A stretch of DNA of 23,145 nt from a virus: IMG/VR virus record IMGVR_UViG_3300009370_000174, positions 1 to 23,145 of that record; one strand, given 5' to 3'. Both the position numbers and the translations under genes were made by a program. Shown piece after piece: positions 2 through 10,363 of this stretch. Positions within the stretch are counted from its first letter, which is position 1. Every line of letters begins with the position of its first letter. Under the pieces are notes generated by a model. It ran no database searches. It saw nothing but the letters and a program-made list of their open reading frames with translations, and was not told where the DNA came from.

Positions 2-3000
2 ACTGGAGATGTTGATTTAGGAAATGCAACAAGTGATACAATTACAGCAACGGGTAGATTTGATTCTGATATAGTACCATCTACAGATAGTGCTAGAGAT
101 TTAGGAACTTCTGCATTACAATTCGCAGAAGCTCATATTGATACAGGTCATATAGATGATATTACTGCTACAGGAACTTCAACACTTACAACAGTTGATA
201 TTAATGGTGGAGCAATTGATGGAACTACTATTGGTGCTAGTTCAGCAGCAGCTGGTACATTTACAAATTTAACAGTAACTACAGATGTTAATATTGATGA
301 CTCTGGTGGTGATGGAGCAATGGATGGTGTTATTATTGGAGCATCAAGCGCAGCCGCTGGTACATTCACAACATTAAACACAACAGGACTTACCACGATA
401 GGAGATGCGTCGGGTGATTCTTTAGTTATTAACGCAGCAACTATTAACCCAGCTAATATAGCAGCAGGAACAGATAATTCAGTTGTTGTTTATAATGGTT
501 CAACATTAGTTACAGATGAAATTGATTCAAGAGTTTGGGGAAGTACTTTAGTAGATACTGATGGTTCAGGAACAAATAATGAATTGGCAACTTGGTCTGA
601 TTCAGATACTATAATTGGAGAAGGTAATTTAACTTTTAATGGTTCAGTATTAGCAGTTACAGGTGATCAAACAATATCAGATACATTATCTGTAACAAAC
701 AGTATTACAGGTTCTATAGTTAGTGCTTCAACTGGTCAATTTACATCAATAACTGGCGTAACAACATTAACCGCTGGTGGAAATTTAGATATTGGAGCTC
801 ACGATTTAAGAGCAGCGACAATCACCGCAGACGGATTATCAAGTGGTAGAGTTGTATTCGCTGGAACAGCTGGAGTCTTATCAGACGATTCTGATTTAAC
901 ATTTAGTGGTGATACTTTAACCGCTACAAAGATAGGAGCTTTCACATTATCTGGAAAACTCACGGCGGGAAGCACAGAGATCGAAGGTTCGGCTTTTGAT
1001 ATTGATGGTGGAGATATTGCAAGTGGAGTAACAATTAATAAATCACCTGTAGTTAATTTTAATAGTGGTGATGTTCAAGGTTCAATAACTTTAAGTAATT
1101 TAGCAAGTGGTACAGGAGCACTAACAATTCAAGCCGATTCAGTTGAACATTCTATGATTAATGATAATTTAATTAGTGGATTTTCGAATTTAGGTAGTGC
1201 AGGAGTCGCTCAAGGTGATGAATTTTTATTCTCTGATAATGGAACTTTAAAAGCATTAACTTTTTCAAACCTTGAAGATACTATATTCGGTAATGTAAGT
1301 GGAGATGCCACAATCGCAGCAGGTGGTGCTTTAACAATTGGCGCAGGAGCAGTAGAAAACTCAATGTTGGCAAACTCAACAATTAGTGGAGTAGCACTTG
1401 GTAGTAACTTAAATAGTTTATCCATTACTGCAAATGGTGGTATTGGAATGACAAGTTATAATGGTTCTGCAGCAGTATCAAACTTAGCATTAGATATTGA
1501 TGGTATGACTGATATTGGAGCCGCAATTGTAGATGCAGATTTACTAATTATAGATGACGGAGCTAATGGTACAAATAGAAAAGCTACCATGTCAAGATTG
1601 AAATCCTATATGGGTGATATATCTGGTGGTTCTACATTAGGTAATGTTCAAGTTGGTGTAACTGCTGGTGGTGAAATAGATACATCAAGTGGTAATTTAA
1701 CAATAGATTCCGCAGGTGGAACAATTACGTTAGATGACCATGTAACAATTTCAGGTAATCTTACAGTCAATGGCGGCTCTACCGTTGTTTCAAGTAGTTT
1801 ATTAGATATTGGTGATAGAATTATCACATTAAATGCAAATTCTGCAGCAGGAGATGGTGGACTTTATGTAAATGATGCCGATTCAGCAGAAACAGGTTCA
1901 TTACTTTGGGATGTGAGTGAAGATAGATGGGTAGGTGGATTGAAAGGTGCTGAAGCTAATGTAGTTTTAATTAATACAACGGATACACTTACAAACAAAA
2001 CTTTAACAAGTCCTGATATTAATACACCAGATATTGATGGTGGTACTGTAGATGGGGCAACAATAGCAACTTCAGATATTACAGTTGGTTCAGGTAAAAC
2101 TTTAGATGTTAGTGGTGGTACATTAACATTAGCCGCTGATCAAATAAGTGGTAATGCCATTAATGGTGGAACGATTGGTTCTACAACAATTACATCATTG
2201 ACGACTTCAGGAATAACTATTGGTGGACACACAGTTGATGACATTGATATTACTTCAGAAGCTTCAGACGCTGATGACCACTTAATGACAGCAGCAGCGA
2301 TTAAGGCTAGAATAGATGATTTAAAAGGTGTTACTTCAAATGTAGCAGGAACAGGTATAAGTGTAAGTGGAGCAACTGGAGCCGTTACAATTTCAACAAA
2401 TGATGGTCAGATTGTTCATGATAGTTTAAGTGGATTTGTAGCAAATGAACATATAGACCATAGTGGAGTTGATTTAACCGCTGGTTCAGGTATGACTGGT
2501 GGTGGTACAATAGCAGCAAGTAGAACATTTAATGTAATTGGCGGAGATGGAATTACAGCAAACGCTAATGATGTTGCTGTAACAGCAGCACAAACTACTA
2601 TTACTTCAGTTGTAAATTCAAGTTTAGAAATAGGTAGAGATGCCGATAATAGAATTAAGTTTGGTACTGATAACCAAATAATTTTTGAAGTAGATGGTGG
2701 TGATAATGTAGTAATGAAAACAAGTGGTGAAATTGAGGCCACTTCATTAGATATTAGTGGGGATGTAGATGTAGACGGTACACTCGAAACCGACGCATTA
2801 ACAATCGGGGGAGTAACATCAGTTCCTTTTGAAAGTGCAGATCATAGTAAATTAGATGGAATAGAAGCATCTGCAGATGTAACCGATACAGCAAATGTAA
2901 CTGCAGCAGGTGCGTTAATGGATAGTGAATGTACTGACTTAGCCGCAGTTAAGGCAACAGAAGATGCATTTACAGCCGCACTTAAATCCAAACTTGATGG

Positions 3001-3646
3001 TATTGAAGCGTCAGCTACCGCAGACCAAACAATTACTTCTGGAACTGGTATGACAGGAGGTGGAAGTGGTGATATTACTCTTAATGTAGTAGGTGGAGAT
3101 GGAATTACAGCAAATGCTAATGATATGGCAATCACACCAGCTCAAACAACTATTACAGGTATACACAACACCTCACTTCAAATTGGTAGAGACTCACATA
3201 ATGAATTTGATTTCTCTACAGACAATGTAATAAAAGTTTCGGTTGATGCAGTTGATGATGAATTTAGATTTGCAGCAGGTGGAACATTTCACGCAGACGC
3301 AGATGTAGTTGCATATTCTTCAACTACTGCTTCGGATATAAGTTTGAAGAAAAATATTACAGATACAAAATATGGTTTAGATGATATTATGAAACTTCGT
3401 GGTGTTGATTATGATTGGAAACGAGAAGATATGGGACATGACGTTGGTGTGTTAGCACAAGAAGTTGAAGCAGTTATTCCTGAAATTGTGAAAGAATATG
3501 ATGGTATGAAGGGAAGAGAAAAGTTTAAAGCAGTGGATTATAATAAGTTAGTTCCTGTTTTAATAGAATCTATTAAAGAACTTAAATTTAAATTAGATGA
3601 GCAAGAAGCTATCATTAATGATATTAAAAGTATTGAACTCAACTAA
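2..3646 (+). CDS. Tail fibre / appendage protein with C-terminal S74 self-cleaving chaperone domain (5'-partial)
   Basis: The reading frame is open from the first complete codon at position 2, so the ATG at 320 is internal and the true start lies upstream of the window; 1214 codons are present. The body is rich in Gly, Thr, Ser, Asp and Ile, with recurring motifs such as DGTTIGASSAAAGTF, LTNKTLTSPDI, KLDGIEASA and GGDGITANAND, typical of trimeric beta-structured phage fibres. The C-terminus is a peptidase S74 (endosialidase-type intramolecular chaperone) domain: SDISLKKNI begins at 3332, followed by VGVLAQEVEAVIPEIV and DYNKLVPVLIESIKEL. The Ser codon at 3332 and the Lys codon at 3347 have the Ser/Lys spacing of the catalytic dyad in this family, so the chaperone is expected to cut itself off before that Ser after trimer folding. 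Inference: receptor-binding or distal fibre. The family match is clear; the precise tail position is not known. Confidence 0.85.
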   Translation, partial: TGDVDLGNATSDTITATGRFDSDIVPSTDSARDLGTSALQFAEAHIDTGHIDDITATGTSTLTTVDINGGAIDGTTIGASSAAAGTFTNLTVTTDVNIDDSGGDGAMDGVIIGASSAAAGTFTTLNTTGLTTIGDASGDSLVINAATINPANIAAGTDNSVVVYNGSTLVTDEIDSRVWGSTLVDTDGSGTNNELATWSDSDTIIGEGNLTFNGSVLAVTGDQTISDTLSVTNSITGSIVSASTGQFTSITGVTTLTAGGNLDIGAHDLRAATITADGLSSGRVVFAGTAGVLSDDSDLTFSGDTLTATKIGAFTLSGKLTAGSTEIEGSAFDIDGGDIASGVTINKSPVVNFNSGDVQGSITLSNLASGTGALTIQADSVEHSMINDNLISGFSNLGSAGVAQGDEFLFSDNGTLKALTFSNLEDTIFGNVSGDATIAAGGALTIGAGAVENSMLANSTISGVALGSNLNSLSITANGGIGMTSYNGSAAVSNLALDIDGMTDIGAAIVDADLLIIDDGANGTNRKATMSRLKSYMGDISGGSTLGNVQVGVTAGGEIDTSSGNLTIDSAGGTITLDDHVTISGNLTVNGGSTVVSSSLLDIGDRIITLNANSAAGDGGLYVNDADSAETGSLLWDVSEDRWVGGLKGAEANVVLINTTDTLTNKTLTSPDINTPDIDGGTVDGATIATSDITVGSGKTLDVSGGTLTLAADQISGNAINGGTIGSTTITSLTTSGITIGGHTVDDIDITSEASDADDHLMTAAAIKARIDDLKGVTSNVAGTGISVSGATGAVTISTNDGQIVHDSLSGFVANEHIDHSGVDLTAGSGMTGGGTIAASRTFNVIGGDGITANANDVAVTAAQTTITSVVNSSLEIGRDADNRIKFGTDNQIIFEVDGGDNVVMKTSGEIEATSLDISGDVDVDGTLETDALTIGGVTSVPFESADHSKLDGIEASADVTDTANVTAAGALMDSECTDLAAVKATEDAFTAALKSKLDGIEASATADQTITSGTGMTGGGSGDITLNVVGGDGITANANDMAITPAQTTITGIHNTSLQIGRDSHNEFDFSTDNVIKVSVDAVDDEFRFAAGGTFHADADVVAYSSTTASDISLKKNITDTKYGLDDIMKLRGVDYDWKREDMGHDVGVLAQEVEAVIPEIVKEYDGMKGREKFKAVDYNKLVPVLIESIKELKFKLDEQEAIINDIKSIELN
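212..376 (+). repeat. Tandem fibre module, two 60-base copies (212-271 and 317-376)
   Basis: Two in-frame copies, 105 bases apart, both encode Gly-Ala-[IM]-Asp-Gly-x-x-Ile-Gly-Ala-Ser-Ser-Ala-Ala-Ala-Gly-Thr-Phe-Thr. They differ at many silent third positions (for example tcagcagcagct versus agcgcagccgct), so this is an old duplication or a module kept by selection on the protein. Confidence 0.7.
2540..3250 (+). repeat. Duplicated fibre module, copies at 2540-2698 and 3092-3250
   Basis: Two copies offset by exactly 552 bases (184 codons) encode GGDGITANAND, then AQTTIT, then S-L-[EQ]-I-G-R-D, then a T-D-N-x-I segment. The N-terminal part of the module is nearly identical between copies and the C-terminal part has diverged. 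The KLDGIEASA motif also occurs twice here, near 2850 and 2990. Confidence 0.7.
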
Positions 3647-6705: not shown

Positions 6706-6745
6706 AATAGAAGAAGATATAATAATTGCTTTTAGGAGAAAAATA

Positions 6746-7234
6746 ATGCCTGATATCCTCGACACTAATGAGATATTTTTTACGCCGTTTGAACCGAAAA
6801 CGAAAAATCGGTATATCATGTACATTGAAGGTATACCATCCTATTTAGTTAAGACGGCAGGAAGACCTCAAATACAATTTGAAGAATTGGTTTTAGATCA
6901 TATTAATGTCAAAAGACATTTAAAAGGTAAAGGTACTTGGCAACCTGTAGACATTATGTTATATGATCCAATAGTTCCAAGTGGTGCGCAAGCAGTAATG
7001 GAATGGGTTAGGTTGTCTCATGAATCTGTAACAGGCCGTGATGGTTATGCAGATTTTTATAAGAAAGATGTAACTTTTAATATGTTAGGTCCAGTAGGAG
7101 ATATTGTTGAGGAGTGGACTTTAAAGGGCGCTTTTATATCAACCGCAAATTTTGGTGAAGTTGGATTCGCAGAAAATGATCCAGCAGAAATTACATTAAC
7201 TTTGCAGTATGATTACGCAGTCTTACAATTCTAA
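6746..7234 (+). CDS. 19: Tail tube protein (T4 gp19-like)
   Basis: I place the start at the ATG at 6746, preceded by TTAGGAG (6732-6738); the frame can be read back to a TTG at 6695 but that region is promoter-like and has no ribosome binding site. This gives 162 residues, almost exactly the length of T4 gp19 (163). Features of the tube family are visible: an N-terminal FTPFEPKTKNRYIMYIEGIP strand region, a central VDIMLYDPIVPSGAQAVMEW, and a C-terminal EWTLKGAFISTANFGEV followed by AEITLTLQYDYAVLQF. Stacked hexameric rings of this protein form the inner tube through which DNA passes. It directly follows the sheath gene, the normal myovirus order. Confidence 0.95.
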   Translation: MPDILDTNEIFFTPFEPKTKNRYIMYIEGIPSYLVKTAGRPQIQFEELVLDHINVKRHLKGKGTWQPVDIMLYDPIVPSGAQAVMEWVRLSHESVTGRDGYADFYKKDVTFNMLGPVGDIVEEWTLKGAFISTANFGEVGFAENDPAEITLTLQYDYAVLQF

Positions 7235-7455: not shown

Positions 7456-8214
7456 ATGAGTGAAGTTACATTTCCTACGGAAGAGGTTAATCTTCCATCT
7501 AAGGGTTTGTACTATGACAAATCCAACCCATTATCAAGTGGTAAAGTAGAAATAAAATATATGACAGCTAAAGAGGAAGATATTCTTACCTCAATAAACC
7601 TTATTCGTAAGGGAACTGTTATAGATAAAGTTCTTGAAGCTTTGATAGTTGATAAAAAAATCAAAATAGATGATTTATTGGTTGGGGATAAAAATGGTTT
7701 AGTCATAGCTACTAGAATTCTTGCTTACGGTAAAAATTACGAAATTCAGGCATTTTGTGATGATTGTCAAGAAGTAAGTCAATTAGTAGTTGATTGTACA
7801 AAACTTTCCGATAAGGAAATATCAACTAAAACAAAAGAAAATAAGTTCTCTATGGAACTTCCAAGAACAAAAGTTAGAATAGAATTCAAACTTTTAACTA
7901 GTGGTGAAGAGAAGTTGGTTGAAAAAGATGTAGTGGCTATGCAAAAAGCACAACCTGACCATGATTATACTAACACTTTCAGATTCAAACGAATGATTAC
8001 TTCAGTAGATGGAGACACTAAACAAACGGTTATTAACGATTTTGTTGATAATAGATTTTTAGCACAAGATTCGTTGGCATTTAGAAAGCATTTACAAGAC
8101 GTAACTCCTGATGTAAATATGGGTTATCCTTTTGAATGTGTTAAATGTGATCATGAACAGGAGGTAACGGTGCCATTGGGCACCACGTTTCTTTGGCCTG
8201 ACACATCTCAATAG
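7456..8214 (+). CDS. 26: T4 gp26-like baseplate hub / tail assembly protein (zero-frame product)
   Basis: A 252-residue protein. The N-terminus VNLPSKGLYYDKSNPLSSG, then VEIKYMTAKEEDILTS, is characteristic of the gp26-like family of T4-type phages. T4 gp26 (208 residues) is classically called a baseplate hub subunit. Two Cys pairs, C101-x2-C104 (CDDC) and C228-x2-C231 (CVKC), suggest a zinc ribbon joining the middle and C-terminal parts. The gene lies between tail tube and tape measure, the position held by tail assembly chaperones in other tailed phages. Its last 16 codons overlap an open +1 frame that continues to 8407 (see the entry at 8189), so this is probably the shorter of two products. 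The ribosome binding site is ACGGAG at 7445-7450. Confidence 0.8.
   Translation: MSEVTFPTEEVNLPSKGLYYDKSNPLSSGKVEIKYMTAKEEDILTSINLIRKGTVIDKVLEALIVDKKIKIDDLLVGDKNGLVIATRILAYGKNYEIQAFCDDCQEVSQLVVDCTKLSDKEISTKTKENKFSMELPRTKVRIEFKLLTSGEEKLVEKDVVAMQKAQPDHDYTNTFRFKRMITSVDGDTKQTVINDFVDNRFLAQDSLAFRKHLQDVTPDVNMGYPFECVKCDHEQEVTVPLGTTFLWPDTSQ
8159..8197 (+). promoter_or_regulatory. Probable programmed +1 ribosomal frameshift site
   Basis: Three elements lie in the last 20 codons of the gp26-like gene. First, AGGAGGT (8159-8165) is a perfect Shine-Dalgarno sequence with no usable start codon for the second frame after it. Second, GGTGCC-ATTG-GGCACC (8169-8184) is a perfect 6-bp stem with five G-C pairs, unusual in such AT-rich DNA. 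Third, ACG TTT CTT TGG C (8185-8197): a +1 slip at TTT re-pairs as TTC, and a slip at CTT re-pairs as TTT. CTT TGG C differs by one base from the CTT TGA C slip site of bacterial release factor 2 genes. A +1 shift enters the frame that stays open to 8407. Confidence 0.6.
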
Positions 8215-8407
8215 ACTTCAAGTACACGAAGAAATATTTAATCTTTTAAATTACGGTAATGGTGGTTACACTTTTAACGAAGTGTATAATATGCCTATAT
8301 ATCTAAGAAGGTTTTATCTAAAAAGACTCAATAAGGAATATAAAGATATTGCAGCTGAAAGAGATAAAGCTAATAGAAAGTCTCAACAAGTCTTGAAAAA
8401 GAAATAA
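8189..8407 (+). CDS. Frameshift extension of the gp26-like protein (tail assembly chaperone-like)
   Basis: This frame is open from 8168 to TAA at 8405-8407 and reads like real protein: FGLTHLNRLQVHEEIFNLLN, then YGNGGYTFNEVYNMPIYLRR, then a basic Lys/Arg-rich helix ending LKKK. The only ATG (8291) is 39 codons before the stop, lacks a ribosome binding site and would discard the conserved-looking first half. If ribosomes shift at CTT (8191-8193), the fused product is 246 plus 70, or 316, residues. A short product plus a longer frameshift product just upstream of the tape measure is the arrangement of lambda G/GT. Alternatives are a sequencing or assembly indel joining what is really one gene, or an independent gene with a non-standard start. 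Existence as coding sequence is well supported; the mechanism is inferred. Confidence 0.65.
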   Translation, partial: FFGLTHLNRLQVHEEIFNLLNYGNGGYTFNEVYNMPIYLRRFYLKRLNKEYKDIAAERDKANRKSQQVLKKK

Positions 8408-8473: not shown

Positions 8474-8704
8474 ATGTCAAAGAAGATAAATGAAGGTATT
8501 GTTGATAAGGTTTTTGGTAAAGTCATAAATCTTGTTATGAAAGGGCAATCTAGAAAAGCTATGAATGCCTTCAAAAAAGATAAAAAACTACAGAGAGATA
8601 TAAAAGCCGCTGCTGATGCGCAAGATACTCTGAAGAAAAGTATTGAAAAATTAAGAAAAGACCCCGAATTCGAAAAGGAATATCAAAAGAGTTTAAAATT
8701 ATAA
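8474..8704 (+). CDS. Small basic helical protein, unknown function
   Basis: A 76-residue, Lys-rich protein (KAMNAFKKDKKLQRDIKAAAD, ending KDPEFEKEYQKSLKL) predicted by composition to be largely helical, with a short hydrophobic stretch near residues 9-22. The start follows CGGAG at 8462-8466. It sits between the gp26-like frameshift product and the tape measure, 12 bases before the latter, so an assembly role linked to the tape measure is possible. I recognise no family. Confidence 0.65.
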   Translation: MSKKINEGIVDKVFGKVINLVMKGQSRKAMNAFKKDKKLQRDIKAAADAQDTLKKSIEKLRKDPEFEKEYQKSLKL

Positions 8705-8716
8705 AAAGGGTAATGC

Positions 8717-10363
8717 ATGCCAACTAAACGGGAACAACAGCAGTTAAATGATGCGTTAAACCAAACTAAAGAACTAATATCATCTATCAATAAATCAGTA
8801 GGTGAGATGGATGGTGGATTTTCGGATATTGGTGGATCAATAAAAAATAACGCTAGTGCTTTGAATGCGTTTTTGAAAGTTTCTGCTAAAAATAATGAAG
8901 TAACAAAAGCAACAGTAAAAACTGGTAATCTTATAGCGGAAGCATATGATGATGTTGCTGAAAATCTTGAAGATGTTCTTAAAGGTAATAAACAATTTAA
9001 AGTAAGTTCAAAACAAATTGGTGATTTAATAAATGGTAGTATAAAGGGTGGAGCTTCAAAAAATGCTGAACATATGAGAGAACAAGCAGAAAATGTTCAG
9101 AAAATGTTGAAGGTGTTTGAAAATCCAAAATTCCAAACAGCTTTTTCAGGAATAGAAAAGGGTGCAGATAGGTTAACAGGTTTTATTAATAAACTCCCAG
9201 GTGGTCAAACGATGTCAAAAGCCTTTGGAGTAGATAAACAAATAGCTGCTAATACTAAGCAAATGCAAGGAAATATGTTGAAATTTGCTAAAAGTGGAAA
9301 AGTATCGGCTAAGGGTATAGGTGGTTTACTTAAAGGTACTAAGTTTCTTAAAATTGGAGTTCTTGGTGCAGCATTAGCGATGATATCTTTTGGATTAGAA
9401 GCTAATAAAACACAAAAAGCATTAGGTGGAACTTATACACAGGCAGCAAAGGTACTTGCTACGTCTAAAGCAATAGCTGCAGCAAATAAACTTAACGGTA
9501 TGACTCAAGAAGAATCAATGGATTTGATGATGGGTATTAATCGTGAGTTTGGTAATATGGATAAAGCTGCTTTAGGTGTAACTATGAAAGCAAGTAATTT
9601 AACTGCCAATTTTGGTTTGAGTGCAGGAAATGTTGGTAAGTTAGCTAGACAGATGCAGGCAGTTGGTTCTACAAGTTTAGAAGCATCTATAAATACTATA
9701 GAAATGGGTGGAGAGTTAGCAAGAGCAGCAAATGTTCCTGTAGCTGACGTGATGAATGATGTTGCACAGAATACAGAATTTTTCGCTAGATTTGCTAAAG
9801 ATGGTGGAGTTAATATAATAGCAGCAGGAATAGCAGCTAAGAAATTAGGTTTGGAAATGGCTAATCTTGCTTCTATAGCAGATAGTTTATTAGACTTCGA
9901 AAGCTCAATAACTAAACAAATGGAAGCTGAGGTTTTATTAGGTAAAGAATTAAATCTTGAAAAAGCAAGAGAGATGGTATTCAATAATGACATAGCAGGA
10001 GCTATGGCAGAAGTATCAAAGTTAGTTTCTCCTGAAGAATTTCAAAAGATGGATGCAGTTAGAAGAAGTACATTAGCAGGTGCCGTAGGTTTAGATGCAG
10101 CAACTTTTGCAAAAGCTATTAGTGGTGATACGACAGGAGTAGGAGATGCAGTTATTGCACCAGGAGGAAAAGTTATTTCAACATCACCACAAGATTATTT
10201 AATAGCAACTACAAATCCAGGAACATTAGGTGGTGGAATGGATACTTCAAAACTTGAAGGTTTGATGGCACAAGTAGCAGCGTCTGTAGATGGACTTAGA
10301 AATGATACAGTAGACGGAACTTATCAAACTAAAATAGCAATAGAAAGACAAGGAATAGCATAA
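8717..10363 (+). CDS. Tail tape measure protein (gp29-like role)
   Basis: A 548-residue protein, close to T4 gp29 (590 residues). The N-terminal 200 residues are helical with coiled-coil character (LNDALNQTKELISSINKSVG). A hydrophobic segment, KFLKIGVLGAALAMISFGL, lies near residues 209-228, as expected of tape measures that enter the membrane. Residues 240-460 are Ala/Leu/Met-rich helices. The C-terminal motif GKVISTSPQDYLIATTNPG resembles the end of many phage tape measures. Such proteins line the tube interior and set its length. The start at 8717 has AAGGG at 8706-8710; a nearby ATG at 8713 is in another frame. The stop overlaps the next start (TAATG). Assigned from architecture and gene order. 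Confidence 0.75.
   Translation: MPTKREQQQLNDALNQTKELISSINKSVGEMDGGFSDIGGSIKNNASALNAFLKVSAKNNEVTKATVKTGNLIAEAYDDVAENLEDVLKGNKQFKVSSKQIGDLINGSIKGGASKNAEHMREQAENVQKMLKVFENPKFQTAFSGIEKGADRLTGFINKLPGGQTMSKAFGVDKQIAANTKQMQGNMLKFAKSGKVSAKGIGGLLKGTKFLKIGVLGAALAMISFGLEANKTQKALGGTYTQAAKVLATSKAIAAANKLNGMTQEESMDLMMGINREFGNMDKAALGVTMKASNLTANFGLSAGNVGKLARQMQAVGSTSLEASINTIEMGGELARAANVPVADVMNDVAQNTEFFARFAKDGGVNIIAAGIAAKKLGLEMANLASIADSLLDFESSITKQMEAEVLLGKELNLEKAREMVFNNDIAGAMAEVSKLVSPEEFQKMDAVRRSTLAGAVGLDAATFAKAISGDTTGVGDAVIAPGGKVISTSPQDYLIATTNPGTLGGGMDTSKLEGLMAQVAASVDGLRNDTVDGTYQTKIAIERQGIA

Follow-up and report, generated by a model that had tools for sequence, protein, structure and literature searches.

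A probable programmed +1 frameshift, with a conserved upstream hairpin, in the gp26-like gene of environmental tailed phages

Frameshifted tail assembly chaperones and the locus

In phage lambda, two overlapping frames give a short protein, gpG, and a minor long form, gpGT, whose C-terminal T domain connects tape measure and tail tube (PMC5009743; here and below, papers given by PMC number were available in part). The Atkins review describes G–T frameshifting as widely conserved, with T4 as the exception, and the haloarchaeal virus HSTV-2 as very likely shifting by +1 (PMC5009743). Poly-T signals for −1 shifts are known in T4-like phages (PMC12846349), and the SEA-PHAGES training data of PRFect hold 350 cases of a forward-shift motif, most of the joined genes being chaperones (PMC10885494). 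Besides the HSTV-2 chaperone, structural genes of the Listeria phages PSA, A118 and A500 also shift by +1 (PMC5009743, PMC8211752), there at proline CCC sites unlike those described below (PMC8211752).

Elements 5′ of the slip site have been implicated in several systems. The release factor 2 gene, prfB, combines a stop codon in the A site with a Shine-Dalgarno sequence 3 nt away, and stimulation of +1 shifting by a Shine-Dalgarno sequence follows a 3-nt spacing rule (PMC5009743). At T4 gene 60, zippering of a 5′ stem loop at the exit channel has been proposed to pull the mRNA 5′-ward (PMC5009743). Upstream hairpins have been shown to promote +1 shifting in constructed messages; hairpins next to the E site stimulated it at CUUUGA in an E. 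coli 70S extract (Huang et al. 2018, PMC6321510), where the hairpin-dependent shift was seen only without RF2. Frameshifting in chaperone genes is thus known; a +1 shift accompanied by a covarying 5′ hairpin appears to be new. A literature search, with subscription journals mostly outside its reach, found no natural bacterial or phage +1 shift with a conserved, covarying 5′ hairpin, and no report of the +1 chaperone group described here. Vladimirov et al. in 2022 reportedly identified T4-like chaperone genes and may mention this group.

The locus lies on 23,145 nt of viral DNA (IMG/VR record IMGVR_UViG_3300009370_000174, positions 1 to 23,145; 'the window'), part of the genome of a contractile-tailed phage that has T4-like genes. 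We consider it probable, at roughly 0.86, that a programmed +1 frameshift in its gp26-like gene, G, yields chaperone forms of 252 and 316 residues, with a 5′ hairpin as stimulator. Judged from comparative sequence data, the programmed shift itself very likely exists, and the hairpin likely stimulates it. The features concerned are the following.

6743–7234, plus strand: tail tube protein gene, just 5′ of G (phrog_4542, 3.9e-26; the query started one codon upstream)
7456–8214, plus strand: G (TAC-N), gp26-like short form of 252 aa in the 0 frame, stop TAG at 8212–8214
8159–8165, plus strand: AGGAGGT, Shine-Dalgarno-like, 5′ of the hairpin, read from the sequence
8168–8407, plus strand: open +1 frame relative to G, preceded by TAA at 8165–8167 and closed by TAA at 8405–8407
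8169–8184, plus strand: upstream hairpin GGTGCC-ATTG-GGCACC, 6 bp, 3 nt 5′ of the slip site
8188–8197, plus strand: candidate +1 slip site TTT CTT TGG C, placed by alignment of 127 distinct junction rows
8189–8407, plus strand: T domain in the +1 frame, conserved FFGL..GxGG..VYNMPI.LR
7456–8190 joined to 8192–8407, plus strand: predicted long form (TAC-NC), 316 aa, with a slip on the first TTT
7456–8193 joined to 8195–8407, plus strand: predicted long form (TAC-NC), 316 aa, with a slip on CTT
8717–10363, plus strand: 548-aa ORF at the place of the tape measure gene, putative, by synteny only

An earlier, sequence-only reading of the window had located the overlap, AGGAGGT, the 6-bp hairpin and TTT CTT TGG C, all of them correctly. 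Across the junction the fused product would read ..TFFGL.. after a slip on codon 1 and ..TFLGL.. after a slip on codon 2. A Pfam and PHROG search with the 548-aa ORF returned no match with E < 0.03; a tape measure gene is annotated directly after T in Flavobacterium phage immuto and after the gp26-like gene in LIS04. A 76-aa ORF (8474–8704) in the gap from T to the putative tape measure gene has no Pfam or PHROG family match below E 0.02, and Microcystis phage Mel-JY01 has a small ORF at the equivalent place. At the window's edge, positions 2–3646 hold a repetitive 1214-aa reading frame, open at that edge, whose end we take to resemble tail-fibre proteins with an intramolecular chaperone.

The gp26-like family and its second frame

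G matches PF12322 (T4_baseplate) at 2.4e-11, with 44.2 bits against a curated cut-off of 24.5, and phrog_150 (baseplate hub) at 6.4e-12; of 48 aligned G members, 39 match PF12322 with an E no higher than 0.01. By these matches, G is a member of the T4 gp26/gp51 family. For the predicted model of G (mean pLDDT 93.3), the top PDB match in Foldseek was 2ob9, the HK97 tail assembly chaperone, at a non-significant E of 0.7. Re-alignment of residues 1–93 with VIA-align gave Z scores of 5.5 for 3klu (yqbN), which is presumably a prophage tail protein, and 5.1 for 2ob9, both weak, followed by 3.9 and 2.3; the absence of other families from this list is no evidence. The predicted N-terminal fold is thus suggestive of a weak resemblance to the HK97 chaperone. 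Searches of PDB by sequence gave nothing convincing (best E 0.15 for G and 0.56 for T).

A 2010 review (PMC3004832) counts T4 gp26 and gp51 among the hub assembly chaperones. Chaperone function agrees with this kinship as well as with a position before the tape measure gene, which is annotated in immuto, and we infer that G is a tail assembly chaperone. The arrangement is also that of a frameshifted chaperone, with a second frame that directly follows G and precedes the tape measure gene (in the window by synteny only), and with a conserved slip site. In Acinetobacter phage Stupor (MN662249), a gp26 homologue is already annotated as a tape measure protein assembly chaperone.

To survey the second frame, IMG/VR contigs were scanned twice, with G and with T as query, which gave 160 loci as the best 80 of at least 600 matches in each scan. 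This sample is not random and the family exceeds it; some contigs were retrieved by both scans, so the loci are not all independent. G and T profiles were applied to 167 sequences, and among the matches listed G was present in all 167, while T adjoined G in 163 and lay in the +1 frame in 162 of these. The sole exception, with T in −1, is a jumbo phage (LR756511, hereafter L004). Ten further loci came from a scan of bacterial and archaeal genome contigs; nine reach T, which is in +1 in all nine, and the tenth ends inside G. One of them (L189; CP070664.1, 2763491–2770258) has a gp26-like gene, T in +1 and TTT TTT TGG, and sits on a 2.85-Mb contig labelled candidate division WOR-3, as a prophage, a phage-derived particle or a mis-binned sequence.

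For the analyses below, 158 junctions were kept and nine sequences left out. In four, T was not found by the model: L007 and L025 terminate in or at G, and L005 and L006 show a T-like +1 frame by eye. L004 was left out for its −1 frame, and L104, L109, L110 and L111 were left out for a G model match stopping 331 nt before T. In these last four the G frame, as followed by the profile, stops short of T as if G were interrupted or split. Keeping sequences of < 0.8 similarity across the last 120 residues of the G frame gave 99 representatives, of which 96 remain once identical upstream stretches are removed.

Among phage records, tblastn found the second frame in six, namely Mel-JY01, immuto (four records) and the uncultured phage LR756508; in the three phage records examined, it overlaps the end of the gp26-like gene in +1. 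By eye, T is also in +1 in SP-15, LIS04 and GXN1. In Mel-JY01, immuto, LIS04 and SP-15, T had been missed, truncated or called a separate hypothetical gene, and their annotation can be corrected accordingly. The dN/dS ratio of T is 0.07–0.36 in 15 of 18 close pairs and was not computable in the other three: T is under purifying selection.

T-runs commonly carry indel errors, and a sequencing or assembly indel could in principle have made the overlap. Four other IMG/VR contigs, possibly from related samples, however match the window base for base along 920 nt spanning the junction, and the 162 loci that keep the frame relation include many divergent ones, so that this explanation was rejected, its probability being negligible. 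The comparison of homologues that the sequence-only reading had proposed comes out in its favour as regards the overlap.

A second alternative is that T is a separate protein, made from an internal start or by coupled re-initiation from AGGAGGT. Many representatives (77/99) carry a Shine-Dalgarno-like motif close to where G ends, some records annotate T, in whole or in part, as an ORF of its own, and 49 of the 158 loci do have an ATG, GTG or TTG in the T frame before T, an ATG in 15 of them. Yet the remaining 109 loci have no such codon, by which an independent start was rejected for most loci. In the window, the first candidates are the GTG and ATG of '..EVYNM..', within the conserved domain, which bears out the view that the second frame has no usable start. 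A separate T would also leave unexplained why the slip codons and the base preceding them are under selection, as described below, and we regard it as very improbable.

Slip codons and the hairpin ahead of them

The +1 frame opens only 2 nt 5′ of the slip site in 30 of the 158 junctions, and the 0-frame stop lies 15–36 nt past the start of the slip site; together these limits place entry into the +1 frame at the U-run. Among the 99 representatives, codon 1 is TTT in 97 and TTC in two (L133, L144), codon 2 is TTT in 83, CTT in 15 and CTA in one (L002), and codon 3 is TGG in 95, TAC in three and TTC in one, TTT TTT TGG being the commonest slip sequence in the relatives. Codon 2 is TTC in none of its 83 Phe codons, compared with 20% TTC among Phe codons elsewhere in G, and the base 5′ of the U-run is T in 0/99, where codon use in the same genes predicts 44.4. 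With TTT or CTT as codon 2 in 98 of 99 and never TTC, the proposed slip site is conserved among homologues. Re-pairing after a +1 slip is possible on codon 1 except in L133 and L144, and on codon 2 except in L002.

The likeness to the release factor 2 site CTT TGA C on which the sequence-only reading had drawn is partial. In its favour, codon 2 is CTT in 15 representatives, and prfB shares both the possible re-pairing of CTT T to TTT and a stimulating duplex just behind the E site; against it, codon 2 is TTT in 83 and the A site holds neither a stop codon nor a clearly slow codon. The slip may occur at the first TTT rather than at CTT.

A −2 slip would reach the same frame, with a product differing by one residue. 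Phage Mu offers a precedent for −2 shifting in a chaperone gene, and TTT TTT TGG allows two-base back-pairing. TTC TTT TGG (L133 and L144; 2/99), on the other hand, gives no good re-pairing after a −2 slip and re-pairs well only for +1, which favours +1; likewise, the base before the run is never T, and an upstream hairpin should hinder backward movement (PMC6321510). Together these points make the −2 route quite improbable. Nor does transcriptional slippage on the T-run, which would give a mixed mRNA, fit well. Most relatives have seven T in a row, a short run for such slippage, but the window and 14 others of the 99 have TTTCTTT, with a longest run of three, and this possibility appears extremely improbable.

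Immediately 5′ of the programmed slip site proposed here, the message is folded. Among 30-nt windows, mean folding energy is lowest at −30 to 0 of the slip site (−6.67, compared with −0.65 to −5.90 elsewhere). When the 3′ halves of a 24-nt stretch were exchanged among the 96 distinct sequences, folding at the hairpin weakened from −5.57 to −3.2 kcal/mol (z −11, 0/200; the representatives are still related, so this and the other z and P values overstate independence). Scanned along the gene, the half-swap test gave z −9.3 and −11.4 in two windows over the hairpin, values between −2.5 and 1.4 in 29 windows centred at −230 to −62, and −0.3 to −3.1 in the next ones toward the hairpin. Randomisation of synonymous codons gave z −18 at the hairpin (0/200), against −2.4 to 0.8 at seven control positions. 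The hairpin is selected at the RNA level.

Covariation in fixed columns is weak, as the register of the stem differs among lineages. Half swaps within registers, on rows that had been picked for having a stem, gave z −5.0, −5.3 and −4.1 (0/200 each), −3.4 (1/200) and −2.0 (15/200); a sixth register, with four sequences, shows no variation. Of the 99 representatives, 64 have a stem of set strength that ends no more than 7 nt from the slip site and 35 lack one, compared with 1–23 of 98–99 having it at twelve shifted places; with the synonymous-codon result, this upholds the suggestion that the hairpin is conserved in homologues. An Rfam search returned no match. In the 96 best stems, gaps of 3 nt (23) and 4 nt (18) to the slip site are most common. 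With codon 1 in the P site, a gap of 3 nt brings the end of the stem to the E-site codon, a geometry shared by the Shine-Dalgarno duplex of release factor 2.

The Shine-Dalgarno-like sequence is itself recurrent. A 4-mer of this kind starts at −36..−22 in 77/99, compared with 5–13/99 in four windows from −120 to −46; 23/99 have one at −22..−8 and 14/99 at −14..−4, and a 5-mer is found in 74/99. However, its distance from the slip site is 22 nt in the window and 22–26 nt in 34 of 43 representatives with the motif wholly 5′ of the stem. At 22 nt rather than 3 nt, AGGAGGT does not qualify as a +1 stimulator of the classical Shine-Dalgarno type; at that position lies the hairpin. The presence of AGGAGGT, and of a similar motif in relatives, stood; its role as a classical stimulator did not. 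In contrast to prfB, the window group has neither a Shine-Dalgarno sequence 3 nt before the P-site codon nor an A-site stop, but an intramolecular hairpin. That the hairpin might set a constant effective Shine-Dalgarno spacing was also considered and is unsupported (sd 4.0, compared with 3.7 for linear spacing).

Past the slip site, half swaps again gave strong values (z −8.6 at +12..42, −7.4 at +40..70, −5.3 at +66..96 and −4.3 at +62..92; in the scan, values down to −6.5, with −6.2 as far as +206..234), reflecting either further structure inside T or a test that is less clean there. RNA-level selection on the upstream hairpin is maintained in spite of them, since the synonymous-codon test is independent of these values. 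A downstream hairpin was called in 20 of 99 representatives, compared with 2–43 of 98–99 at shifted places, 43 being the place that catches the upstream hairpin, and other places inside T match the half-swap signal at +12..42. Four lineages (L033, L018, L138 and L055) have a strong hairpin starting about 11–12 nt past the start of the slip site, and lineages with a downstream hairpin often have no Shine-Dalgarno-like motif (Fisher p 0.0014, uncorrected for kinship).

These data also bear on the possibility that the shift is real but driven by the Shine-Dalgarno motif, by downstream structure or by the U-run alone, the hairpin being an attenuator, terminator-like or a limiter of −1 shifting. 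A hairpin followed by a U-run does resemble an intrinsic terminator, the Shine-Dalgarno-like 5-mer is found in more representatives than the hairpin (74 and 64 of 99), and the half-swap signal is strong downstream too. Against this, the window's U-run is interrupted and transcription has to continue along the tail operon, the motif lies mostly 22–26 nt from the slip site and coincides with Glu-Val codons, which AGGAGGT overlaps, and downstream hairpins are no more frequent than at some of the shifted places. We consider this possibility unlikely.

With the hairpin as stimulator, the following course of events can be proposed. Most ribosomes would stop at 8214 and release the short form. At UUU CUU UGG, a fraction would have their P-site tRNA re-pair one base forward, from UUU to UUC or from CUU to UUU, and continue in +1 to yield the 316-residue long form with the T domain. 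The 6-bp hairpin would refold where the mRNA exits, just behind the E site, and there block backward movement or pull the mRNA 5′-ward, taking the place held by the Shine-Dalgarno duplex in release factor 2. T4 gene 60, with its bypass, skips about 50 nt, whereas the window group would skip 1 nt. By analogy with lambda gpG/gpGT, coating of the tape measure would fall to the short form and recruitment of the tail tube protein to T; lambda slips by −1, and the window group would slip by +1 with a 5′ hairpin. The occurrence of frameshifting, its efficiency, the codon that slips, the mechanical role of the hairpin and the chaperone function are all inferred here. The proposal of the sequence-only reading, a gp26-like chaperone with forms of 252 and 316 residues made by a +1 shift, is supported by T being in +1 at 162 of 163 loci and by the conservation of the slip codons.

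Shift direction within the gp26/gp51 family

The same gene family also includes a sister lineage that shifts the other way. The gp26 genes of cyanophage Bellamy, KVP40, phiAS5 and Rhizobium phage IC12 have the T domain in the −1 frame. In a set made up of 86 retrieved loci (80 of them with the Bellamy query) and five phage records, T is in −1 at all 91 loci, two of the five records, KVP40 and phiAS5, being duplicated among the 86 (as L271 and L273, respectively). The slip context is NNT TTT TTC, the −1 heptamer, in 86 of 87 distinct contexts. These T4-like chaperones (Bellamy, KVP40, phiAS5) share with the +1 group the gene family, a homologous T and a slip at Phe-Phe codons that end G. They differ in having T TTT TTC, with stronger downstream folding (40 nt; −8.95 in the −1 group, −4.91 in the +1 group) and weaker upstream folding (24 nt; −2.50 and −5.65, respectively), whereas the +1 group has T in +1, no T before the run and a 5′ hairpin.

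T4 itself has two PF12322 proteins, gp26 and gp51, encoded by two separate genes. Beside gene 26, no T frame or overlap was found. The extra C-terminus of gp51, however, appears related to T: hhalign against the gp51 C-terminus together with −1-frame T domains gave 82% and E 1.1e-5. Taken singly, T sequences give weak E-values (0.0045 at best among those not used to build the model, 0.23 for that of the window), and a profile of the full-length fused G–T protein had no significant match to gp51 (probability 0.9%), though T alone matches. The call for a fresh look at T4 gp26 and its neighbour was thus rewarded in part, not by an overlap beside gene 26 but by a paralogue with a T-like C-terminus.

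In a tree of 40 G proteins, with several long branches and weak deepest joins, the +1 sequences group with L004 (100/100) and T4 gp26 joins gp51 (99/94). Since L004 has T in −1 and groups with +1 sequences, the direction of the shift may have changed there. One gene family thus appears to have arrived at three solutions: a −1 shift, a +1 shift and duplicated genes.

The +1 arrangement appears to belong to a large group of tailed phages, most of them environmental. With −1 and +1 lineages of one gene at a near-identical slip site, what sets the direction of a shift becomes directly testable. Going further, we lean towards the view that these phages hold a widespread natural +1 signal in which a hairpin at the E site replaces the Shine-Dalgarno duplex, and that sister lineages flipped the direction of shifting, be it from −1 to +1 or from +1 to −1, on a shared Phe-Phe U-run through the base before the run and an exchange of 3′ structure and 5′ hairpin.
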